A DNA stretch of 49,887 nucleotides from the NCBI GenBank assembly GCA_937944105.1, contig CALDZP010000061.1:1-49887 (forward strand), in the 5' to 3' direction. The stretch is from an uncultured Ignavibacteria bacterium (GTDB lineage Bacteria; Bacteroidota; Ignavibacteria; Ch128b). The notes beneath the pieces were generated by a model. That model worked only from the letters and a program-made list of their open reading frames with translations, had not been told where the DNA came from and made no database searches. The first letter of the stretch is position 1; every line of letters begins with the position of its first letter. Both the position numbers and the translations under genes were made by a program. Shown one piece after another: positions 21,505 through 40,446 of this stretch.

Positions 21505-21653
21505 ATTTTTTGTACAAAAAAATTTTTATAATAAAATACTACAAATGCCTTATTGCATACTTATTTTTTGTATTTATTTTGTATCAGATAAGAATTCAAA
21601 ATTAAATGAAACATAAAATAACTAAACTAATCATTAATAAATCGGAGGGTCCT

Positions 21654-22700
21654 ATGAGACGCCAACTTTTATTTCTATTTTCTTTCTTTTTTGTTGTCTG
21701 TGGATTTTTACAAGCACAGAATTCAGAACTGGAACAAACACTTGCAAAAATCACAGGTGATGCTAGTAAAGCATATGTTGCTCCAATCACATCTGCATTT
21801 GGGGCTAACTTAAATTCTGGATGGGTTCATGGTGCACCAAAAGCGACAAAATTCAGTTTTGATCTTGAAATTGGTTTTGTCGGTATGGCTACTCTCTTTG
21901 GTTCCAGTAACCAAACTTTTAGTTCAAGCGGTAGTTTTCGCTTTAATAATGATCAAGCGGAACAATTAATTCCAAGTAATATCACTGGAACTCGTAGAAC
22001 ACAAATACGAAATGAGATAATGAGCAGAGATTTTACTGTTTCAATTAATGGTCCTACAATTGTTGGTAAAAAAACTGACTCAATTAAAGTCGTTTTCCCC
22101 GGTGCCACAATTCAAGGAGAAACTATTGGACAGAAAACCATTGTTCTTCCTGTAACAGGTTATCTGGAAGAATTGCCTGCTTTACCTCTTGCAGTTCCAC
22201 AAGTTTCTTTTGGAACAATTTTTGGCACACAAGTAGCAATTAGATATTTACCTGAATTTGATATTAGTCCGGATCTTGGAAAATTTAAATATACTGGATT
22301 TGGAATTCAGCACAATCCAACAATGTGGGTTCCATTCCCAGTTCCAGTAAATGTATCTGTGGGATATTTTACTCAGTCATTAGAAGTTGGTAAAATATTC
22401 AAAACCTCTGCATCAATGTTTGGAATATTTGCATCGAAAAGATTTGGACCGGGTGCATTAAACATTGAACCTTATGCCGGCTTAAGTTTCGAAAGTTCAT
22501 CCATTGATGTTCAGTATGATGTAGTTTATGATACACCAACTGGGCCATCTCCATCAACAATTAAGTATTCAATTGAAGGTGAGAATAGTACAAGAATAAC
22601 ACTTGGTGCAACCTTGAAATTGGCATTATTAGGAATAAGTGTTGATTACAGCATTGCAAAATATAACACCGTAAGCGCTTCATTAAATATCAAAATTTAA
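21654..22700 (+). CDS. Outer-membrane barrel-like exported protein, DUF6588-like
   Basis: 348 aa from the ATG at 21654. This start is chosen because GGAGGG sits just upstream and the protein then begins with a clean signal peptide (MRRQLLFLFSFFFVVCGFLQAQ); an in-frame ATG at 21606 would add a charged extension. The segment APITSAFGANLNSGW (residues about 44-58) resembles the start of DUF6588 proteins of Bacteroidota. The rest alternates short amphipathic strands and glycines and ends in an aromatic-poor strand, as in small outer-membrane barrels. The function is unknown. A strong terminator follows at 22715-22754, so it is a single-gene unit. Confidence 0.72.
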   Translation: MRRQLLFLFSFFFVVCGFLQAQNSELEQTLAKITGDASKAYVAPITSAFGANLNSGWVHGAPKATKFSFDLEIGFVGMATLFGSSNQTFSSSGSFRFNNDQAEQLIPSNITGTRRTQIRNEIMSRDFTVSINGPTIVGKKTDSIKVVFPGATIQGETIGQKTIVLPVTGYLEELPALPLAVPQVSFGTIFGTQVAIRYLPEFDISPDLGKFKYTGFGIQHNPTMWVPFPVPVNVSVGYFTQSLEVGKIFKTSASMFGIFASKRFGPGALNIEPYAGLSFESSSIDVQYDVVYDTPTGPSPSTIKYSIEGENSTRITLGATLKLALLGISVDYSIAKYNTVSASLNIKI

Positions 22701-28641: not shown

Positions 28642-29652
28642 ATGAAAGAATATGAAAAAGCAGGCGTTAGTATCTCCAGAGGAGATGAATTTATAAGAAA
28701 AATTAAAACTCTTGTTCGCTCTACTTATGACCGGGATAATCCAAACGCAAATAGAGTTTTAAGTGACATTGGGCACTTTGGAGCTTTTTATGATATAAAT
28801 TTTACCAATATCAAAAATCCAGTGCTTGTTTCAAGTGTTGATGGAGTGGGTACAAAACTTAAAATAGCCATTATGATGAATAAGCACGATACAATAGGTC
28901 AGGATTTAGTTAATCATTGTGTCAATGATATTTTATGTTCTGGAGCGCAACCTTTATTTTTTCTGGATTATCTTGCCTTCGGTCGTTTGAATCCAGATGT
29001 TGCAGAACAAATTATGATTGGGTTATCAAAAGCTTGTAGAGAAAATCATTGTGCTTTAATCGGTGGCGAAACTGCTGAAATGCCTGATCTTTACAATGAA
29101 TCAGATTATGATATTTCTGGTACAATTGTAGGAATTGTTGAAAAGGATAAAATTATTGATGGTAAAGATATTAATAAAGGTGATGTTTTACTGGGGCTTA
29201 AGTCAAATGGATTGCATACTAATGGTTATTCTCTTGTCAGAAAAGTTTTATTAAGTAAATATAAAGTTGATGATTTTATTCCAGAATTAAATTCAACACT
29301 TGGTGAAGAGTTACTTCGTATTCATAAATCTTATTTAAAGATAGTTTTTCCACTGCTCAATAAGTTTAACATTAAAGGGATCTCTCATATTACAGGCGGT
29401 GGAATTGTTGGAAATACAAAACGAATAGTGCCTGATAATTTGAAAGTCAAAATTGACTGGTTTTCGTGGGATATTCCTGAAATATTTAGGTTAATTCAAA
29501 GAACAGGTAAAATTTCTGATGAAGAGATGAGAGAAGTTTTCAATCTTGGAATTGGAATGATATTAATTGTTGATAAATCTTTAGTTGATGACTTAAAAAA
29601 TGAACTGAAAAAATTAGACGAAGAAATTCTAATTATAGGTGAAATTGAATGA
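28642..29652 (+). CDS. purM: Phosphoribosylformylglycinamidine cyclo-ligase (AIR synthetase)
   Basis: 336 aa from the ATG at 28642, where the protein begins MKEYEKAGVSISRGDEF as PurM proteins do; the upstream in-frame ATG at 28585 would add 19 non-conserved residues. It converts FGAM to AIR with ATP in de novo purine synthesis. Key segments are visible: DGVGTKLKIA, VNDILCSGAQPLFFLDYLA, and IGGETAEMP. The length fits the family. It is the first gene of a tight unit: the propeller gene overlaps its stop by 4 bp (ATGA). The downstream genes are all exported and have no known connection to purines. Confidence 0.97.
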   Translation: MKEYEKAGVSISRGDEFIRKIKTLVRSTYDRDNPNANRVLSDIGHFGAFYDINFTNIKNPVLVSSVDGVGTKLKIAIMMNKHDTIGQDLVNHCVNDILCSGAQPLFFLDYLAFGRLNPDVAEQIMIGLSKACRENHCALIGGETAEMPDLYNESDYDISGTIVGIVEKDKIIDGKDINKGDVLLGLKSNGLHTNGYSLVRKVLLSKYKVDDFIPELNSTLGEELLRIHKSYLKIVFPLLNKFNIKGISHITGGGIVGNTKRIVPDNLKVKIDWFSWDIPEIFRLIQRTGKISDEEMREVFNLGIGMILIVDKSLVDDLKNELKKLDEEILIIGEIE

Positions 29653-30638
29653 TGCGAGTGTTTTTAATTGTTTTGATATTGTTATCTAACCTTTTTGGAC
29701 AGATTGTTTTTACAGCAGTGGATAGATTAACTCAGTCAGTAAAAGCGTTTTATTTAGATGCCAATTCTGAACAGATAACAGAACTTTCTTATGGTAACTC
29801 TTATCTTCCGAGATGGTTGAATGAAGAATATATCGTATTAAATATTGGTAATTCCATCTTTAAAGTAGATAAGTACCGTCAAAGACAAATATATTTTTTT
29901 GATGGTTACATGCCTGTTGTTTCAAGATCTGGCAAATATATTGCTGCATATTCTCAGAATGGAATTACAATTGCTGATTCCACTGGAAAAATTTTAAGAG
30001 TTATTGAGGTTGATTACTGGAGTAAAGTCACACCGATTTTTTCATTTGATGAAAAAAGTATTTTTTATTACGATAAAAAGCGAGAAGCAACTTTTAAATT
30101 CAACTGGGAAGAGCAAACTAATCAATTATTTGCTCATTATATTTTTCATCCACTTTATTCACCTGATGGAGAAAAATTATTAATAAATATTGGTAAGATT
30201 GATTCAAATTTTAGAGTTGGTATAGTTAACCACGATTGGACTGAAAATCAACCAATTAATTACATTACTTCCGCTTACGAAAATTCTGTTATTCCAATAT
30301 GGTCACCATCAGGAAAGTATATAGCTTATATGATTTTGCTTTCGAAAACAACATACTCTAATTCTGATTTAATACCAGCAAAAATTGTTTTGTTTGATAC
30401 AAAGTCGAAAATAAAACAAATCATTGCAGAAGATGCAGGCTTTACTGAAGGAATATTTCCACAATTTTCTTTTAGTAATGATGAAAAATATTTTTACTAT
30501 ACCGCAATAAGAGAAAATGGGACTGGTGTAATTGTTCAGGTTGATTTGTTGTCTAATTTTAGTAAAAAAGTTTTGCTAAACGATTTAGAAGTTGATTCCA
30601 GAATTCCTCTCAGTTTTGATAGATCATTTCATCAGTAA
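29649..30638 (+). CDS. Exported TolB-like beta-propeller protein
   Basis: 329 aa. The signal peptide ends near LFGQ (residue 18). PD40-type blades recur, each with an xSPDGxx-like turn: LYSPDGEKLLINI (about 170-183), IWSPSGKYIAYMI (about 218-230) and FSFSNDEKYFYYT (about 270-282). This is the TolB/DPP-IV propeller type, used for protein binding in the periplasm. There is no catalytic domain and no TolB N-terminal domain. The start overlaps the purM stop (ATGA), giving translational coupling, and the next gene starts 10 bp after its end. Its function is unknown. Confidence 0.82.
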   Translation: MMRVFLIVLILLSNLFGQIVFTAVDRLTQSVKAFYLDANSEQITELSYGNSYLPRWLNEEYIVLNIGNSIFKVDKYRQRQIYFFDGYMPVVSRSGKYIAAYSQNGITIADSTGKILRVIEVDYWSKVTPIFSFDEKSIFYYDKKREATFKFNWEEQTNQLFAHYIFHPLYSPDGEKLLINIGKIDSNFRVGIVNHDWTENQPINYITSAYENSVIPIWSPSGKYIAYMILLSKTTYSNSDLIPAKIVLFDTKSKIKQIIAEDAGFTEGIFPQFSFSNDEKYFYYTAIRENGTGVIVQVDLLSNFSKKVLLNDLEVDSRIPLSFDRSFHQ

Positions 30639-30648
30639 AAAGCAAAAA

Positions 30649-33225
30649 ATGAGAAAGATTTATTTTGTAATTTTATTATCATTTTTATCACTCACATGCT
30701 CAAAATCACCTAAAGAATTACAGAAAGATAGTGACCGTTTTTTTAATCAGGCTCTTGATTATTACGAGAGAGGATACTTTAATCAAGCTGCGCAACTTTT
30801 TCATAAAGTTATTGATATTGAGAAAAAATTAAATAACATCCAAAGAAAAGCAAATTCTTTTATTTACCTTGGACTAATCTATTATCAGATTTCAGATTTT
30901 AATAAATCTTTGAATAATTATAATCAAGCACTTGAAAATTTTAAGACAATCAATGATAAAAAAAGTGAATTAATCGTAATGAATAATGTGGCTGGAATTT
31001 ATGCAAATTTGGGTCAATATGACGAAGCAATTAAAATTTACTCTGAAATTATTGGGAAGAGTTTAATATTTGCTGATAAAGAATCGGAAGCGATCGCTTC
31101 TCTAAATCTTGGTGAAGTTTATCAAGAGCTCTGGGATTTTGATAAATCTTTTGAATATTTTAATAAAGCGTTTGAATCTTATGAGATACTAGGTGATATA
31201 AAAGGTAAAATTTATACATTAAATAAAATCGGTGAACTGTTTATTGCATCCAAAAATTTTCCGGCAGCATTAAAATCTTTTGATATGGCGCTTGAAATTA
31301 TAAATAAAACCGGAACGATATATTTAATTCAAGAGATTTATAATAATACTGGATTGGTTTATTTTTATGAAGATCAAATTTTCAGAGCAAAAGAAATATT
31401 TGAACTGGCATTAAATTCAGTCCAGACTGCAGAATCAAATCAACAAATTTTAATTTCAATTAATAATAACCTTGGTGATTGTGAGTTTAAAAATCAATCA
31501 TTTTCAAAGGCACTTGAGTATTATAAAGAAGCATTGAATCTGAGTGAAAATTCATTTTTGAAATTTTTGTCACCAATTTTACAACTGAAAATTGCTAAAT
31601 GTTATGAACAACTCTATTTCATCTATGACAATCAAAGTGATAAAAATCAAGCAGAGAGATTTTTTCAATTTGCAATCAATCGTTTTGAAGAAAATTATGA
31701 TTTGCAAAACTTACAAAAGGCATTAACTATTGTTTCATCGTTTTACTTTAAGACGGGTGAGTTTAAGAAATCATTAGAGCTTTTTTCAAAGCTGGAATCA
31801 TTTAATTTACATTTTAAACTGAAACCTGATGATCATATCAGATATTTTGCAATTAAGCCTGAATATGATCTGGCATTTATTAGAACTTTTTGTGAACGGC
31901 AGAAATCTTTTGAAGCACTAAAATTAATTGAAACTATAAAATTGCAACAATCTTTAGAGTACTTTTTGAGATTTAGAGATTTTAAATTTTTAAGTAAAGA
32001 GGTGTCAGATAAATTTCAATTGCTCAAAAGTTTGATTTTGAAAAAAGATACTTATGAAACGATTTTAAATCAGGAATTATCGTTACCGTTTGCACAAAGG
32101 ATAAAAGAAAAAATTAAGATTGCAAGAAAAGAAATTAACGATATTTCAAAAAAAATTAACGATTTAATTTTGTCTTTGTCTGACGATTTTTCGTTTTTAA
32201 AATTAATTACGAAAGAAAAATCATTTCCAAAATTTGTACTGGATGAAAATACAATTTATATAGAGTTTTTTCCTGCCGGTGAATACCTAAATTTTTTCAT
32301 TATTTCCAATAAAGAAATTAAATCAAAATCAATAAAAATTAATAATCATAATCTATCCTTCAGTCTAAAAATTTTTAGAACGAATATTAGTGAATTTAAT
32401 CAAAATGAGTTGAAAGAATTTTCTTCACAAAACTTTGGTGAAATTGCTGATGAGTTACTTTCAGAAGTAAATAAAATAGGTAATAATGTAACTGAGTTAA
32501 TCTTTCTTATTAACGGGACAGAATTCGACTTTGTCTCACATCTTTTTTATTCGAAAAGATATAATCAATTTATTGCCGAAAGTTTCAACATTAGTTATTC
32601 CTATTTCATAAGAGAAAAGAAAAGTGATAATCAAATTAACTCGACTGGTGTCTTATATGGTGGAGAATTAATTTCAGCAGATTACCTGCAAAATAAAAAA
32701 TCATCAAAAGCAGAAAGTCTATCATCAAATAAAGATAAAAAAACCTCACAAAGAGATTTAAAAATTGATTTAAGTAAAGATATAAGACAAAAAATAAATA
32801 ACCAAAATACTCAAGGAAACATAAATTTAGATTGCATAATATCTCTTGATGAATTTTTTATTAATCAATCATCTCCAGAATTTATTTATTCCGGAATAAA
32901 GAGTAACCGAAACAGTTCAAGATTTTATTTGCGTCAATTATTGAGCTTTAAACCAAAATTATTGATTTTAAGATCGATTCAAAGTGATGATATTTTTAAG
33001 GCTCCCTACATTTTGTCGCTTTTTAGTTTTTCAAATACATCCAATGTTATTTTATCGATGATAAAACAAACTCAAGACTTTACATCAAACTTTTTGTATA
33101 ATTACATTAAGAGAGTTGAGAATAAAAATATAAATTTAGCAACAAAAGAATTTTTTGATATGATAAAGAATACAACCACTAAAAATACTAACCAGGACTT
33201 TTACTGGATTAAATTCAAAAACTGA
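30649..33225 (+). CDS. Lipoprotein with TPR array and degenerate CHAT domain
   Basis: 858 aa from the ATG at 30649, which gives a clear lipoprotein signal (MRKIYFVILLSFLSLTC, Cys17); the in-frame ATG at 30592 overlaps the propeller gene and adds unrelated residues. Residues about 22-390 hold at least eight tetratricopeptide repeats (SFIYLGLIYYQISDF, ASLNLGEVYQELWDF and so on). Residues about 520-858 have the CHAT (caspase-HetF associated with TPRs) outline: an IYIEFFPAGEYLNFFII strand pair, IFLINGTEFDFVSHLF where CHAT has a PdG-lxxlPf segment, and a typical NVILSM ... YWIKF end. Where the catalytic LSACET cysteine motif should be (LLILRSIQSDD), no cysteine is found, and no HG histidine motif is seen before it. 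So it is probably an inactive CHAT acting as a binding module. Confidence 0.78.
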   Translation: MRKIYFVILLSFLSLTCSKSPKELQKDSDRFFNQALDYYERGYFNQAAQLFHKVIDIEKKLNNIQRKANSFIYLGLIYYQISDFNKSLNNYNQALENFKTINDKKSELIVMNNVAGIYANLGQYDEAIKIYSEIIGKSLIFADKESEAIASLNLGEVYQELWDFDKSFEYFNKAFESYEILGDIKGKIYTLNKIGELFIASKNFPAALKSFDMALEIINKTGTIYLIQEIYNNTGLVYFYEDQIFRAKEIFELALNSVQTAESNQQILISINNNLGDCEFKNQSFSKALEYYKEALNLSENSFLKFLSPILQLKIAKCYEQLYFIYDNQSDKNQAERFFQFAINRFEENYDLQNLQKALTIVSSFYFKTGEFKKSLELFSKLESFNLHFKLKPDDHIRYFAIKPEYDLAFIRTFCERQKSFEALKLIETIKLQQSLEYFLRFRDFKFLSKEVSDKFQLLKSLILKKDTYETILNQELSLPFAQRIKEKIKIARKEINDISKKINDLILSLSDDFSFLKLITKEKSFPKFVLDENTIYIEFFPAGEYLNFFIISNKEIKSKSIKINNHNLSFSLKIFRTNISEFNQNELKEFSSQNFGEIADELLSEVNKIGNNVTELIFLINGTEFDFVSHLFYSKRYNQFIAESFNISYSYFIREKKSDNQINSTGVLYGGELISADYLQNKKSSKAESLSSNKDKKTSQRDLKIDLSKDIRQKINNQNTQGNINLDCIISLDEFFINQSSPEFIYSGIKSNRNSSRFYLRQLLSFKPKLLILRSIQSDDIFKAPYILSLFSFSNTSNVILSMIKQTQDFTSNFLYNYIKRVENKNINLATKEFFDMIKNTTTKNTNQDFYWIKFKN

Positions 33226-33240
33226 TTGAGGATGAGGACT

Positions 33241-33747
33241 ATGATTAAAAAAATTTTTCAAGTTATAGTTTTATTTTCAATTACAATGATAATTGGTTGT
33301 GATCATGGTATTGCGCCGAGAGTAGAACCACCACGGACCGGTTTTTCAGGAAAAATCACATTTAAAAATCAATGGCCAAGTGATATTTACCAGACCCGAG
33401 TAGTAGCTTTCAGAGAGACAATTAAAACAGTTGCAGATTTTAATATTATGAATATTGGATTTATCAGTGACACTATACCTTATGGTGTAAGTGAATTTAT
33501 TTATGAATCAGATAAAAATCCTCTGATTGAACCAGCAGAAGGTTCAACTCTTAAATACATTGTTGTTGCTCAAGCAATTGTTCCAAACCCATTACCAAGA
33601 AGACAGGATTGGCGAGTTGCAGGAATCTATTTTTCACCAGAGGATTCTACAAAATTTGGCAGTGTTACAATTGAAAAGGGAGTTTTCAAAAGAAATATCG
33701 ATATTGTAGTTGATTTTAATAATCCCCCAATTCAACCACCTAATTAG
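33241..33747 (+). CDS. Small lipoprotein preceding a TonB receptor
   Basis: 168 aa. Three candidate ATGs are in frame (33226, 33232, 33241); I favour 33241 because GAGGATGAGGAC sits before it and the protein then starts with a standard signal. Cys20 in IIGC is the lipidation site. The mature part starts with a proline-rich stretch, then a beta-rich domain opening FSGKITFKNQWPSDIYQTRVV, which looks like a small beta-sandwich. No catalytic motif is visible. It lies 15 bp after the CHAT gene and 10 bp before the TonB receptor gene, so it may be a surface partner of that receptor. Confidence 0.78.
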   Translation: MIKKIFQVIVLFSITMIIGCDHGIAPRVEPPRTGFSGKITFKNQWPSDIYQTRVVAFRETIKTVADFNIMNIGFISDTIPYGVSEFIYESDKNPLIEPAEGSTLKYIVVAQAIVPNPLPRRQDWRVAGIYFSPEDSTKFGSVTIEKGVFKRNIDIVVDFNNPPIQPPN

Positions 33748-33757
33748 TGGAGGCAGA

Positions 33758-35938
33758 ATGATTAGAAATCTACTAATCTTTTTAATTTTTTTAATTCCTG
33801 TTTTAATTTTTTCTCAACAACAAAAAGTTTATGGTATTCTTGAAGGAAAGGTACTTGACGAAACAAATTCTCCTTTAATAGGGGCAAATATTAAAATTGA
33901 AAAGACCTTGATAGGTAGTGCAACTAATCGTAAGGGGATGTTCAGAATTGTTCGTGTACCAGTGGGAAAACATTTTGTCAGATTTTCAATGGTTGGTTAT
34001 GAATCTAAGGTTATTGAAGTTGAAATTAAACCAAACGAAGTTACATATATTGATGTTAAGTTGATCCAAACTCCAATTCAAACTCAGGAAATTTTTGTTA
34101 GTGCAAGTAAATATGAACAAAAAATCTCCGAGATCCCAGTTAGTGTTTCCGCTCTAAGTTCTCAGGAATTATCATTTAGAAATACAAGAAGATTGGATGA
34201 AGCGTTGAAATATGTTTCAGGAATTAATATGACTTCTGATCAAATAAGTATTCGTGGTTCAAGTGGATACACAAGAGGTGCCGGGAGTAGAGTTTTACTT
34301 TTAATTGATGGTATACCACTTTATACTGGTGATACTGGTGATATCATCTGGCAACTGATTCCAGTTCATGAAATTGAAAGAATTGAGGTCGTTAAAGCTG
34401 CCGGTTCTGCTTTATACGGCTCTCAAGCTATTGGAGGCGTGCTCAATGTAATTACAAAAGATTTTTCTGCTAAACCTATTACTTATTTTAAGACTCAAGG
34501 CGGTTTCTATGATAAACCTTACTATAGTGAGTGGAATTGGTCTCCAAGAACAAGGTATTTTAATACATTAACTTTTTCACACACACGAAAAATTGGTGAT
34601 CTGGGTATTTCACTATCGGCTTCAAGATTTGAGGATGACTCATACAAATTAAATAATTACACAAAAAGATATTCACTTTATTTCAAATCCAAATACAACT
34701 TAAATCCTACGAATAGTGTTTCTCTTCTTTTTAATGGAACGACATACAAAAGTGGTAGCTATCTTTACTGGAAAGATTCAAGAAATGCTCTTATTCCACC
34801 AGAATCACAAATAGGTGAATGGGTAAAGACAGAAAGATTTAATTTGAATTTAAGTTATCAGAATCTTTTTTCTTCTAATACATTAATTAACTTTAGAAAT
34901 AGCTGGTTTCATAATAATTGGTGGGACAATACTGATTCAAAAAACTCCTCAAAGAGTGAAATGTTAAGAAGTGAACTTTCTATTAATTACTTTCTGGAGA
35001 ATCATAAAATTATAACTGGCATAGATGGTAGCTTTGCCACTGTTACTTCAAATATTTTTAGTAATCCTGTTGCAATTGGTTTTGCCTTATTCGGTCAGGA
35101 TGAAATTTCTTTTCTTCAAAATAATTTAAAACTTACTGGCGGAATTAGAATCGATTATCAGAAAGTGGATACTGTACTTTCAGAATTAAATTTTAATCCA
35201 AAGTTGGCATTAAATTATAAAGCGATAGATAATTTGTATTTAAGAACATCAGTTGGGCGTGGTTATCGTGCTCCTACTCCATCGGAACTGTTTAGCAAAA
35301 CAAGTGTGAGTGGAATACTGGTAATTCCTAATCCTGATTTAAAATCAGAATCGAACTGGAATTTTGAAAGTGGTTTAAATTTTACATTGAATGATATTGT
35401 ACGAATTGATGCGGCAATATTTAATAATGAACTTTACAATTTCATTGAGCCTTCAATTGATCCAGTTACAAGTTATATACAATTCAAAAATATTACTCGG
35501 GCAAGAATTACAGGTTATGAAGTAAATATTTCTTCGGAATTTATCAAAAATCATCTCAAGACTAATTTTGGATATACTTACTTATGGGCTCGTGATTTAA
35601 AGAATAACATTTTTTTAAAATATCGTCCAAGACATCTTATTGTGGTTGATCTTGCATATAAATATGATTTTATTCAAACAGGGATTGACTTCAGATTCTG
35701 GAATAGATTGGAGACAATTGATGAAGATTTAATTAAACTTGGCATCGTGAAAGATGGAGATTTGAGAGATAAAGTTTTTCTAGTTGATTTTCATTTAAGT
35801 TTTGATTTGATTCAAATATCACTGCCATTAAGAATATATTTTACAGTCAATAATTTATTTAACTATAATTATATTGAGATGATCGGTAACCTTGGGCCTA
35901 TTCGTTCATTCAGTTTGAGTATCGAAGGGCTTTTGTAA
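33758..35938 (+). CDS. BtuB/siderophore-type TonB-dependent receptor
   Basis: 726 aa from the ATG at 33758, with GGAGG just upstream and a clean signal peptide to FSQQ (residue 21); the upstream in-frame ATG at 33710 lies within the lipoprotein gene. A carboxypeptidase-regulatory-like domain (about 26-110) is followed by the plug (about 120-230), with IRGSSGYTRGAGSRVLLLIDGIPLY and a GSALYGSQAIGGVLNVITKD segment typical of BtuB/siderophore receptors, then the barrel ending in a leucine. It should transport a scarce small ligand such as a cobalamin or metal complex across the outer membrane. The ligand is not evident. It ends the purM-led unit. Confidence 0.9.
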   Translation: MIRNLLIFLIFLIPVLIFSQQQKVYGILEGKVLDETNSPLIGANIKIEKTLIGSATNRKGMFRIVRVPVGKHFVRFSMVGYESKVIEVEIKPNEVTYIDVKLIQTPIQTQEIFVSASKYEQKISEIPVSVSALSSQELSFRNTRRLDEALKYVSGINMTSDQISIRGSSGYTRGAGSRVLLLIDGIPLYTGDTGDIIWQLIPVHEIERIEVVKAAGSALYGSQAIGGVLNVITKDFSAKPITYFKTQGGFYDKPYYSEWNWSPRTRYFNTLTFSHTRKIGDLGISLSASRFEDDSYKLNNYTKRYSLYFKSKYNLNPTNSVSLLFNGTTYKSGSYLYWKDSRNALIPPESQIGEWVKTERFNLNLSYQNLFSSNTLINFRNSWFHNNWWDNTDSKNSSKSEMLRSELSINYFLENHKIITGIDGSFATVTSNIFSNPVAIGFALFGQDEISFLQNNLKLTGGIRIDYQKVDTVLSELNFNPKLALNYKAIDNLYLRTSVGRGYRAPTPSELFSKTSVSGILVIPNPDLKSESNWNFESGLNFTLNDIVRIDAAIFNNELYNFIEPSIDPVTSYIQFKNITRARITGYEVNISSEFIKNHLKTNFGYTYLWARDLKNNIFLKYRPRHLIVVDLAYKYDFIQTGIDFRFWNRLETIDEDLIKLGIVKDGDLRDKVFLVDFHLSFDLIQISLPLRIYFTVNNLFNYNYIEMIGNLGPIRSFSLSIEGLL

Positions 35939-36039: not shown

Positions 36040-37440
36040 ATGAAAAAACTAATACAAATAAGTTTGTTCATCTTTTTCTTTACAGGTTTTATTTTAAGCC
36101 AACCAAAATGGACATATCGATATCAAATTAATTTTCCTGAATCAGATACTGCTTTCGTGCGACCTTATTTATGCTCTGTTGACGAAACTGGTCGATTATA
36201 TGTTATATCTTCAAAAATTGTTGATGTTAATGCGCATAATGCAATCTGGTATTGTGATTCAAATGACAATGTAATGAAAAAAATGATAGACTATGACTTA
36301 AATGGTGAATCTGATACGCTTACAGGTAATTTATATGTTTTGCGAGGAATAGCAACTCTCAAAAGAGATGTGATAATTAATGGAAGTGTTCCTTTCCCAA
36401 GGTCAAAACCAAATACAGTTGCTTCGCAATATTATTATACAAATGGTGATACAAATCAAGTTGAAAAGTTTGGTTTTTATCATACTGGATCAGGATACGG
36501 TACATTCATAAATGGGCTCGCAGTTTCTAAAGATTCATTTGCATTCACTGGTATTTCGTATCAGACATCGGTCAGGTTATATAATTTCACAAAGAGTGTT
36601 ACAACTCCTGCACGCGGTTCTTATGTGCCACCACCAACTTATGGGCAAGAACCTGGTGGTCATGATGGAACAGGTTTGAGTACCATACGAGATGTTGCAG
36701 TTCTTCCCGATGGAGATTATAACAATACAGAAACCCCCTGGTATACTTCAAGAAATTCTAATCCGCCTATAACTGGTGGAATATCAGTTTGGGTTGGAGG
36801 AACGCAATCAAGTCCCGGTACTTATTCTGCACAAAGAGTAATAGATCCATATTCACTTTTAAGTTTTGATCGTACAGTTCCATATGGTATAACTGTTGAT
36901 AAATTCAATCGACTATGGGTAGCCGGTACAGATTCAACAAGAAGATGGGTAAAGGCATTTGAATTAACCGGAACTTTTGCAATCGATGTTGCTGAACTTC
37001 CGTCTCAGTTTAGTTCAACTAATCCTGACCCTTATGGTGCTCCAATGATGGCTCCATCAGATGTAGCATTGACTGCTGATGGTTTAACTGCTTATGTTAC
37101 TGATATTGTTAATCGTTGTGTTTATAAATTTCAATATGGTGAATTCACTTCAGTAGATGAGAAATCAACACAACTATTTAATTTTTCACTTGATCAAAAT
37201 TTCCCGAATCCATTTAATCCATCAACTCTTATTTCATTCACAATTCCTGAAGCGATGAATGTTAAACTTGTTGTCATCAATTCACTTGGTCAGGAAGTTG
37301 CAACATTAGTTGATGAATTTTTAAATGCAGGTAAGCATGTCAGAAAATTTGAAGCAACAAATCTTTCAAGTGGAATTTATTTCTATAAATTAATAACGAC
37401 GAAGGGAATTATTTCAAAGAAAATGGTTCTTACAAAATAA
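36040..37440 (+). CDS. T9SS-secreted beta-propeller-like protein with type A sorting domain
   Basis: 466 aa. The signal peptide ends near LSQP (residue 21). Residues about 50-375 are beta-rich with NHL-like propeller features (YGITVDKFNRLWVAG, PSDVALTADGLTAYVTD). The last 86 residues (381-466) are a classic type A T9SS sorting domain: FPNPFNPST, then NSLGQEVATLVD, then LSSGIYFYKLIT and a basic end, typical of Ignavibacteria. So it is exported by Sec and then moved to the surface by T9SS. TTAGGAG lies near the ATG. The TonB receptor gene begins 12 bp after the stop. The ligand or enzyme role is unknown. Confidence 0.88.
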   Translation: MKKLIQISLFIFFFTGFILSQPKWTYRYQINFPESDTAFVRPYLCSVDETGRLYVISSKIVDVNAHNAIWYCDSNDNVMKKMIDYDLNGESDTLTGNLYVLRGIATLKRDVIINGSVPFPRSKPNTVASQYYYTNGDTNQVEKFGFYHTGSGYGTFINGLAVSKDSFAFTGISYQTSVRLYNFTKSVTTPARGSYVPPPTYGQEPGGHDGTGLSTIRDVAVLPDGDYNNTETPWYTSRNSNPPITGGISVWVGGTQSSPGTYSAQRVIDPYSLLSFDRTVPYGITVDKFNRLWVAGTDSTRRWVKAFELTGTFAIDVAELPSQFSSTNPDPYGAPMMAPSDVALTADGLTAYVTDIVNRCVYKFQYGEFTSVDEKSTQLFNFSLDQNFPNPFNPSTLISFTIPEAMNVKLVVINSLGQEVATLVDEFLNAGKHVRKFEATNLSSGIYFYKLITTKGIISKKMVLTK

Positions 37441-37452
37441 AATTTCATTAAT

Positions 37453-40446
37453 ATGTTAAGACAAGTTTTCTTTTTGTTAATTTTTTCAGTTGCGTTCTTA
37501 ATCGCTCAAGGTGGCAAAGGGAAAATTACTGGTCGTGTTGTTGATGATAAAACCAATGAACCACTTGTGGGTGTAAATGTTTATTTAGAAGGTTTGTTTA
37601 TTGGAGCAACAACTGATGTTAATGGTCGATATGTGATTTTGAATGTTCAACCTGGGAAATATGATTTGAGTGCAAGTTTCATTGGTTATGCTAAAATAAC
37701 AAAGAAAGATGTAGAAGTTTTTATCGATAGAACGACAGAAGTTAATTTTAGATTAAAAGATATTTCAATTCAAATTCAGGATGTTGTTGTTATAGCTGAA
37801 AAACCAAAAATAATTAAAGATCAAACCTCTACTGCTTCAACTGTAAGTGATGAACAAATAAAAGTTGCTGCTATTGAAGGTATTAGAGGAATTATTGACT
37901 TAACTTCAAGTTTTATGAAAAATGCTCAGGGAGATTATCAGGTTCGTGGTTCGGGGGCTTACGAAGTTAATTTTCAAATTAATGGAGTTGAACAAATTAA
38001 TGCGTCCACTTCAGCACCAGGTGCTTTTGCCACTAACAAAGCAAATAATTCATGGAAATATGATGTCAATCCATTAGGTGTACAACAACTTCAAATGATA
38101 TCTGGTGGATTTTCAGCAGAATATGGAAACGCACAAGCCGGAATTGTAAAGGTTGTCATGAAAGAAGGTACTCCTAATTTTAGTGGTGAGATTAGAGTTG
38201 AAATGAGACCACCAGGACAGTATCATTGGGGTCCTTATCTTTATGACAAAAACAATTATGAATGGCGAAAATGGGGTCCCCTTGAGAATTGGTTTAAGAT
38301 GAAAGATTTAATCATAACAGAGTTAAAACTTGATACAAGATATAAAGAACTTTATAATCAAGCCAAAGCAGGAGATTCAATTGCAATTCAACTTTGGAAT
38401 GAAATTGTAAATAGAGAAATTACATGGGCACATAGTGTTTGGGTAAAAAATCATTCACCGTCCGATGATAATCCACTTGGAGTTTATGACTACCGTAATC
38501 GATGGTATAATAGAATTATGTTTGGATTTGGTGGACCTCTTGGTAAAAATCCAAACCTATTAAAATTTTTTCTTTCAGGAGAATATCGCAAAAGTCCAAC
38601 AAGGTTACCTACTCCAGAAAAAGATCAAATTTATCAAAATTATATTCTTAACATAACTTATAAGCCATTAGAAGGACATCGATTTAAGTTAATGGCAGCT
38701 TTTCAGAAATATCGTGGGGGGATTTGGTCAGGGTCGGAAGATATTAGATGGTCTGGTATAGCATTTTCACCACCGGGAGTATCTACAAAATATTATGTGA
38801 CAGTTGATCCTGTCAGGACAGAACAAACTATAAGTCAAAGTTTAAATTGGGTTTACACAATTAATCCCAGGTCATTTCTGGAAACTAATATTTCTCATCA
38901 ACAAGAAATATACATTTTACCGTATGAATATCTTGCAGGTTATGGAGTTGAAGCTGATCGACTTGATAGTTTAAATGATCCAAGAGGAGTTATTTTGAAG
39001 GATGGTGTATGGTGGGAGAATAATTATTTCCGTCAACCGTTTAATTTTTCTACTAACTATTATCAGGATAATCGGACTAATCATTGGAGTTTAAGCTTAG
39101 ATTATACAAATCAGATCATTCCGACCAATTTATTAAAAGCTGGCTTTCGTTTTTATTATTGGGATATGATTAATAATGGCGTCAATTCAAGTTTTCAGGC
39201 AAATACATATCTGGTTCGTTCTGGTTTTGCTGAGTATTATCGAGCTTATCCGATTGGTATTGCTTTTTATATTCAAGATAAGATGGAATATGAAGGAATG
39301 ATTGCCAATCTCGGTGTTCGGGCTGAAGCTTATAATTTTCAAGCTCGTGTACCTGTAGATAAATTTAATGTCTTTTATCAGGGAACTGGAGGACCAGGTT
39401 CAAGAGGAAATCCAGAAACAAAAGATTCAAAGACACGATACATTATTTTGCCGAGACTTGGAATTTCATTCCCAATTGGAGAAAACACAGCTTTTAGACT
39501 TCAATATGGTCATTTTGCCTCTATGCCAATTTTTTCGCAGGCACTTTCACAAAGAACAGAATCTGGTTGGGCTGGAAGAGGTAATCCTGATCTTCTGCCA
39601 AAGAAAACGATTTCTTATGAATTTGGTCTACAACAGGTAATTGAAGAAACTCATCGTTTAGATGTTGCTTTGTTTTATAATGATAGAGTAAGACAAATTG
39701 GTTTACTAAGGGTGGCTTCTTTCACAGGAAGCAGAAATAGACCAGCAGGATTTACTGATGATAATATCCCATTGTATTCATATACAACTTTTGACAATAA
39801 TGCTTTTGGTTCTTCAATTGGTCTTGAAGTTATATTTGAAAAAGCGATTCGTGATAGATGGATGTATCGATTAAGTTATACTCTATCTCAAACTACTGAA
39901 GGAAATTTTGGACCTGAGATGATTTATCCCAATACAGCTCGCAATTATGAAGCACGAAATTTTACTGGTGAATTTTTATCTGGGTCTGATCGAACTCATA
40001 GTTTTCGTGGAATGATTCAATATAATGTTGAAGAAGATGGTGGAATTTCAATCCTGGGATTCAAACCATTTTCTAATTTTAATATTAGCCTGACTTATAC
40101 TGCACAATCAGGTACTCCATTTACATATCGTACTACTTTTGATTTAAAGGATATCGTTAATAATCGTCGTTATCCACTTGAATCTAGCTTTGATTTAAAT
40201 GCTCAAAAACAATTTAAGCTTGCTGGTACAAGAATGTTAATTGGAATCCGTGTAATGAATTTATTCAATAATAAATGGATTACACCAATGGATACTCAAG
40301 ACGATATTCGCAACTGGGTTGAAAAGGGAATAACAATGGATAGTCCAGGTTTAGATCCCAATAGATTAAGTTACCTTGTGGCGCCTTACAGAGCATACAG
40401 AAATATACCAAGGCAAGTATTTTTAACAGTTGGTTTAGGTTTTTAG
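37453..40446 (+). CDS. Large TonB-dependent receptor with carboxypeptidase-regulatory-like domain
   Basis: 997 aa. The signal peptide ends near LIAQ (residue 18). Residues about 22-112 form the carboxypeptidase-regulatory-like domain (TGRVVDDKTNEPLVGVNVYLEG, read from 25), and 113-240 the plug with QVRGSGAYEVNFQINGVEQ and ISGGFSAEYGNAQAGIVKVV. A barrel follows to the C-terminal GLGF. The size and the preceding T9SS propeller are reminiscent of SusC-like receptors, but no SusD is adjacent; the 705-aa secreted protein or the propeller may take that place. The substrate is unknown. The start follows the propeller by 12 bp. Confidence 0.9.
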   Translation: MLRQVFFLLIFSVAFLIAQGGKGKITGRVVDDKTNEPLVGVNVYLEGLFIGATTDVNGRYVILNVQPGKYDLSASFIGYAKITKKDVEVFIDRTTEVNFRLKDISIQIQDVVVIAEKPKIIKDQTSTASTVSDEQIKVAAIEGIRGIIDLTSSFMKNAQGDYQVRGSGAYEVNFQINGVEQINASTSAPGAFATNKANNSWKYDVNPLGVQQLQMISGGFSAEYGNAQAGIVKVVMKEGTPNFSGEIRVEMRPPGQYHWGPYLYDKNNYEWRKWGPLENWFKMKDLIITELKLDTRYKELYNQAKAGDSIAIQLWNEIVNREITWAHSVWVKNHSPSDDNPLGVYDYRNRWYNRIMFGFGGPLGKNPNLLKFFLSGEYRKSPTRLPTPEKDQIYQNYILNITYKPLEGHRFKLMAAFQKYRGGIWSGSEDIRWSGIAFSPPGVSTKYYVTVDPVRTEQTISQSLNWVYTINPRSFLETNISHQQEIYILPYEYLAGYGVEADRLDSLNDPRGVILKDGVWWENNYFRQPFNFSTNYYQDNRTNHWSLSLDYTNQIIPTNLLKAGFRFYYWDMINNGVNSSFQANTYLVRSGFAEYYRAYPIGIAFYIQDKMEYEGMIANLGVRAEAYNFQARVPVDKFNVFYQGTGGPGSRGNPETKDSKTRYIILPRLGISFPIGENTAFRLQYGHFASMPIFSQALSQRTESGWAGRGNPDLLPKKTISYEFGLQQVIEETHRLDVALFYNDRVRQIGLLRVASFTGSRNRPAGFTDDNIPLYSYTTFDNNAFGSSIGLEVIFEKAIRDRWMYRLSYTLSQTTEGNFGPEMIYPNTARNYEARNFTGEFLSGSDRTHSFRGMIQYNVEEDGGISILGFKPFSNFNISLTYTAQSGTPFTYRTTFDLKDIVNNRRYPLESSFDLNAQKQFKLAGTRMLIGIRVMNLFNNKWITPMDTQDDIRNWVEKGITMDSPGLDPNRLSYLVAPYRAYRNIPRQVFLTVGLGF

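Follow-up and report, generated by a model that had tools for sequence, protein, structure and literature searches.

The gene at positions 30649..33225 (+ strand) of the window, that is, the whole 49,887-nucleotide stretch of Ignavibacteria DNA analysed here, encodes a probably membrane-anchored protein with the TPR plus CHAT build of bacterial caspase-type proteases, without the residues needed for cutting. The firm part of this description is the pseudo-CHAT lipoprotein itself; at a probability of roughly 60%, we favor a reading in which this catalytically dead TPR-CHAT lipoprotein has an adaptor or scaffold role in the cell envelope, with a TolB-like propeller as its first candidate partner. 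CHAT proteins are known chiefly as proteases, and the literature searched held no description of a pseudo-CHAT lipoprotein.

The open reading frame, which starts with ATG at 30649 and stops at 33225, encodes 858 residues with a C-terminal end of DFYWIKFKN, confirming the coordinates and the YWIKF end given in the original prediction. Four relatives carry a homologue with 30-48% identity to the window protein; two of them belong to the genus and two to the family (the copy in genome G001 ends at a contig edge), yielding a single family of five members including the window's own. A fifth family relative searched, G005, had no homologue, contig searches returned only records matching two homologues already in the set, and when the phylum sample was searched with a profile built from the five C-terminal halves, the sole match beyond the family was a weak partial one, to an intact-dyad TPR-CHAT from another class. 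The protein comprises a TPR superhelix (residues ~21-383; 30709..31797, + strand), a helical linker seen in the AlphaFold2 models (residues ~408-521; 31870..32211, + strand) and a pseudo-CHAT domain (residues 535-858; 32251..33222, + strand). The superhelix is the best conserved part, matches Pfam TPR_12 (E 1.5e-32) and is modeled with a pLDDT of mostly ~90.

The CHAT domain escapes ordinary sequence searches. Pfam CHAT matched neither the window protein nor any homologue, and PF12770 had no match to the domain at E up to 10 and none in the window's genome; Pfam and NCBIfam scans and PDB sequence searches of the window protein returned TPRs only, the PDB search reaching no TPR-CHAT chain, DdvA included. 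A full-length AlphaFold2 model built from the five-sequence alignment (mean pLDDT 75.7, pTM 0.76) nevertheless follows the CHAT order of elements after residue 535, with strands and helices up to strand 616-620, then strand 666-670 and a helix, strands 729-732 and 771-774, a helix, strand 799-804, two helices and a last strand at 852-857. The NVILSM segment corresponds to strand 799-804, and residues 679-724 are of very low model confidence. The Foldseek list for the full-length model was not decisive, TPR proteins standing at its head. With a domain model of the C-terminal 441 residues, made from the window protein and its four homologues alone (pLDDT 65, pTM 0.64), ranks 1-12 were all Csx29/TPR-CHAT complexes, rank 13 was an entry titled merely bacterial protein complex, and DdvA (PDB 8rot, 8rw5) took ranks 14 and 16; the Csx29/TPR-CHAT and DdvA matches had E-values of 6.7e-7 to 6e-5, and the other hits among the 21 with E below 0.001 were further TPR-CHAT entries, a second untitled complex and ciliary central-pair proteins. 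The global superposition of the domain model is poor (TMq ~0.4, rmsd ~11 A), and the predicted caspase-like CHAT fold is supported at modest confidence.

A second, independently obtained line of evidence comes from a wider set of pseudo-CHAT lipoproteins in the same class. PF12770 matches occur in 41 of 99 relatives and in none of the six genomes of the window's family, and the weaker ones include proteins of ~850-930 aa, in other families, without HG and SAC motifs. A search with the alignment of these proteins gave numerous genomes with full-domain matches, from families f3, f12, f17, f18 and f5, and none from f1. That the set is CHAT is indicated by its hhalign match to intact-dyad members (99.9%, E 4.8e-31) and by Pfam CHAT hits above cut-off in the members listed. 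The window family in turn matches the 50-member set at 98.4% (E 6.8e-15, 414 columns), and its CHAT part alone at 96.5% (E 7.8e-10, 295 columns), with a CHAT-part score of 77 versus at most 17 for controls (30 shuffled, one reversed); the two groups therefore share a homologous C-terminal half. Because the window family has no direct match to the intact-dyad CHAT profile, its CHAT membership rests on this intermediate set together with the fold. A C-terminal domain of non-CHAT descent would fit the missing HMM match and the missing direct profile link, but the structure search and the profile link agree, making such an origin very improbable. The TPR plus CHAT architecture of the original prediction thus stands. 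In a quick tree for which no root was inferred, the window family, the pseudo-CHAT set and the intact set form three groups.

PF12770 peptidases carry a His in an HG motif and a Cys after an SA motif, and the window protein has neither. Its HG strand reads LDCIISLDEFF, with Glu735 (32851..32853, + strand) at the His position, and its Cys strand reads LLILRSIQSDD, with the Cys position at Ile777 or Gln778 (32977..32982, + strand) in profile alignments that differ by one residue. Across the five family members the His position is occupied by E, R, N, S and S, and none retains the catalytic dyad, so that the loss first proposed from the window protein alone extends to every homologue. The C-terminal 441 residues of the window protein contain one Cys (C729) and two His, and no Cys is common to the C-terminal halves of the five homologues. 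Retention of the fold could be read as a sign of a peptidase that works through other residues; the lack of a shared Cys and the variable residues at both catalytic positions make this a most unlikely proposition.

The wider set has lost the same residues. The catalytic His is lost in all 50 members (E in 27, D in 14, Q in 4, R in 2, and G, A and K once each) and the Cys in 49 (Q in 22, L in 11, others, and C once); the one relative with a Cys at the catalytic position, L106, has no His. These proteins resemble the window family in their TPR-then-CHAT order, in the lost dyad and in a kept non-catalytic His: His631 of the window protein (32539..32541, + strand), invariant in its family, aligns with this His in 49 of the 50. 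They differ in being recognizable by Pfam, in having a CHAT part better conserved than the TPR part, and in the motif [YF]E[LVIM]RD, which is present in 43 of 50 members versus 0 of 19 intact CHATs and in none of the five window-family proteins. Because such residues, rare in intact CHATs, are kept, including one Lys in 50 of 50 members that intact CHATs mostly lack, the fold of the wider set appears to be maintained for a purpose that is not cutting.

The wider set also differs from the window family in its neighbors: of 27 loci (L047-L054 and L089-L108), 22 have a toast-rack protein, 20 an ECF sigma factor and 13 a DUF6588 protein beside the gene. By analogy, the window protein could be a sensor that cooperates with an ECF sigma factor. 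This may be suggested by DdvA, the next best structural match after Csx29, which by its PDB title is a transmembrane anti-sigma factor and thus membrane-associated, as the window protein probably is; the comparison is by fold and PDB title. DdvA acts on the ECF factor DdvS as its anti-sigma factor (PMC4374960). No toast-rack or ECF genes are seen beside the window gene, however, and a lipid anchor provides no cytoplasmic anti-sigma domain, so that we regard a sensor of this kind as quite unlikely. A DUF6588 gene does lie in the window, at 21606-22700; in the three genomes of the genus such a gene precedes the propeller by ~7-9 kb; searches with PF20230 and PF09922 gave no link beyond this one in the same genus.

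The N-terminus of the window protein reads MRKIYFVILLSFLSLTC, a hydrophobic stretch followed by Cys17 (lipoprotein signal, residues 1-17; 30649..30699, + strand). Judged by eye, this is a bacterial lipoprotein signal with a lipobox Cys, slightly off consensus in having Thr at -1; the other three complete homologues carry Ser there (LSC, FSC, VSC), and C-[SG]-K-S is common to all four full-length members. From this sequence we infer that the protein is probably lipidated, as originally proposed, and its final membrane is a matter of inference too. A simple rule found a lipobox-like N-terminus in 44 of the 50 wider-set members as well. Among 15 intact-dyad CHATs of the class whose N-terminus was read, the majority have a signal-like stretch, judged by eye and by a simple rule on hydrophobicity, and two intact-dyad TPR-CHATs (L143 and L146) have lipoprotein-like N-termini. 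Envelope location, which the original prediction had treated as a distinguishing mark, is therefore not distinctive, because most intact-dyad TPR-CHATs of the class also look exported; what sets these proteins apart from the window protein is that their HG and SAC motifs are intact.

The two halves of the window protein have diverged at different rates. Identity to three homologues is 64, 47 and 36% in the TPR part versus 35, 29 and 26% in the CHAT part, the reverse of the relatives, although this contrast comes from five sequences of one family and few pairs. In both the intact-dyad proteins and the wider pseudo-CHAT set, mean conservation is higher in the CHAT part than in the TPR part; one bin of the wider set, for instance, averages 58% identity for CHAT versus 34% for TPR. 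A CHAT part that evolves faster than the TPR part here only, together with the very low model confidence at 679-724, might reflect decay, the TPR part being functional and the rest on its way to being lost. Yet the open frame is full-length in all complete homologues, and His631 and FLYNY are invariant in all five members; decay is accordingly an improbable account, if not a negligible one. The reading we prefer is that the TPR superhelix would be the working part, while the C-terminal CHAT fold would persist as a non-enzymatic module.

In the gene neighborhood, purM, the propeller, the TPR pseudo-CHAT gene, a small lipoprotein and a TonB receptor follow one another on the same strand, slightly overlapping or separated by short gaps, and the four genes from propeller to receptor are syntenic in relatives as far as contigs allow. 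The original prediction had pointed to the propeller, the second lipoprotein and the receptor alike as neighbors; of the three, the propeller alone is restricted to the same genomes. The small lipoprotein (33241..33747, + strand; matched in 60 of 99 relatives) and the TonB-dependent receptor (33758..35938, + strand; identified by Pfam and synteny) are the first and second genes of a class-wide pair, a two-gene unit in many families of the class (L117-L134, L136), and the lipoprotein adjoins the receptor in most loci read with no TPR-CHAT beside the pair. The shared strand, gaps of ~10 bp and gene order kept in the family would suit an accessory of this pair, serving its assembly, stability or substrate handling. 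Against this, genome G078 (locus L120) has purM directly followed by the pair, with neither propeller nor TPR-CHAT. Because the pair occurs class-wide without a TPR-CHAT alongside, receptor and small lipoprotein are probably not specific partners, and a TonB partnership is an unlikely option. Downstream of the receptor, a T9SS-sorted protein and then a large CarboxypepD_reg outer-membrane protein (36040-40446) are conserved in the genus.

The propeller (29649..30638, + strand) is a secreted TolB/PD40-like protein by Pfam PD40 and by an NCBIfam TolB-like match below cut-off. Its strong matches are limited to the five genomes with the window family (G000-G004), and it adjoins the TPR pseudo-CHAT gene in G002, G003 and G004. 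It is the one neighbor to travel with the window gene in the genomes read, and co-inheritance by chance is possible. In the scenario we favor, the lipoprotein would sit in the periplasm or at the outer membrane and, as adaptor or scaffold, use its TPR surface to bind a partner, for which the co-inherited propeller would be the first candidate. This adaptor role and this partner are the most likely ones given conservation and co-occurrence, the binding being a prediction. The structural or signaling role originally suggested is possible. Of the original prediction, the CHAT fold, the dyad loss and probable lipidation are supported; envelope location as a distinguishing mark and receptor partnership are not.

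Among known systems, Csx29, the TPR-CHAT of Craspase, shares architecture and fold with the window protein, which, unlike Csx29, has no dyad and carries a lipoprotein signal; Csx29 has peptidase activity, triggered by RNA, and the dyad H615/C658 (PMC10028731). Caspase-like pseudo-proteases are also known from the pseudo-orthocaspases, caspase-fold proteins of the p20 (C14) family in which the His-Cys dyad is replaced, often by Tyr-Ser, and which occur mainly in Alphaproteobacteria and Cyanobacteria (PMC6426788). They share the lost dyad with the window protein and differ in family, p20 (C14) versus CHAT. Several families within a single class have dead-dyad lipoproteins in which CHAT is better conserved than TPR, and this suggests a second, non-proteolytic envelope use of the fold; the window family exemplifies how far a CHAT domain can diverge next to a conserved TPR part. 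As a tentative extension, which we consider possible though rather doubtful, the widespread dead caspase-fold lipoproteins might form an envelope sensing or scaffolding module of which the window family would be a diverged branch, its partner switched to the TolB-like propeller. The proteins first taken as weak PF12770 matches (L039-L045) proved to belong to another family, p20 caspases with an intact-looking GHG/DACHSGG dyad, and lie mostly beside conserved-looking proteins of ~230 and ~650 aa.
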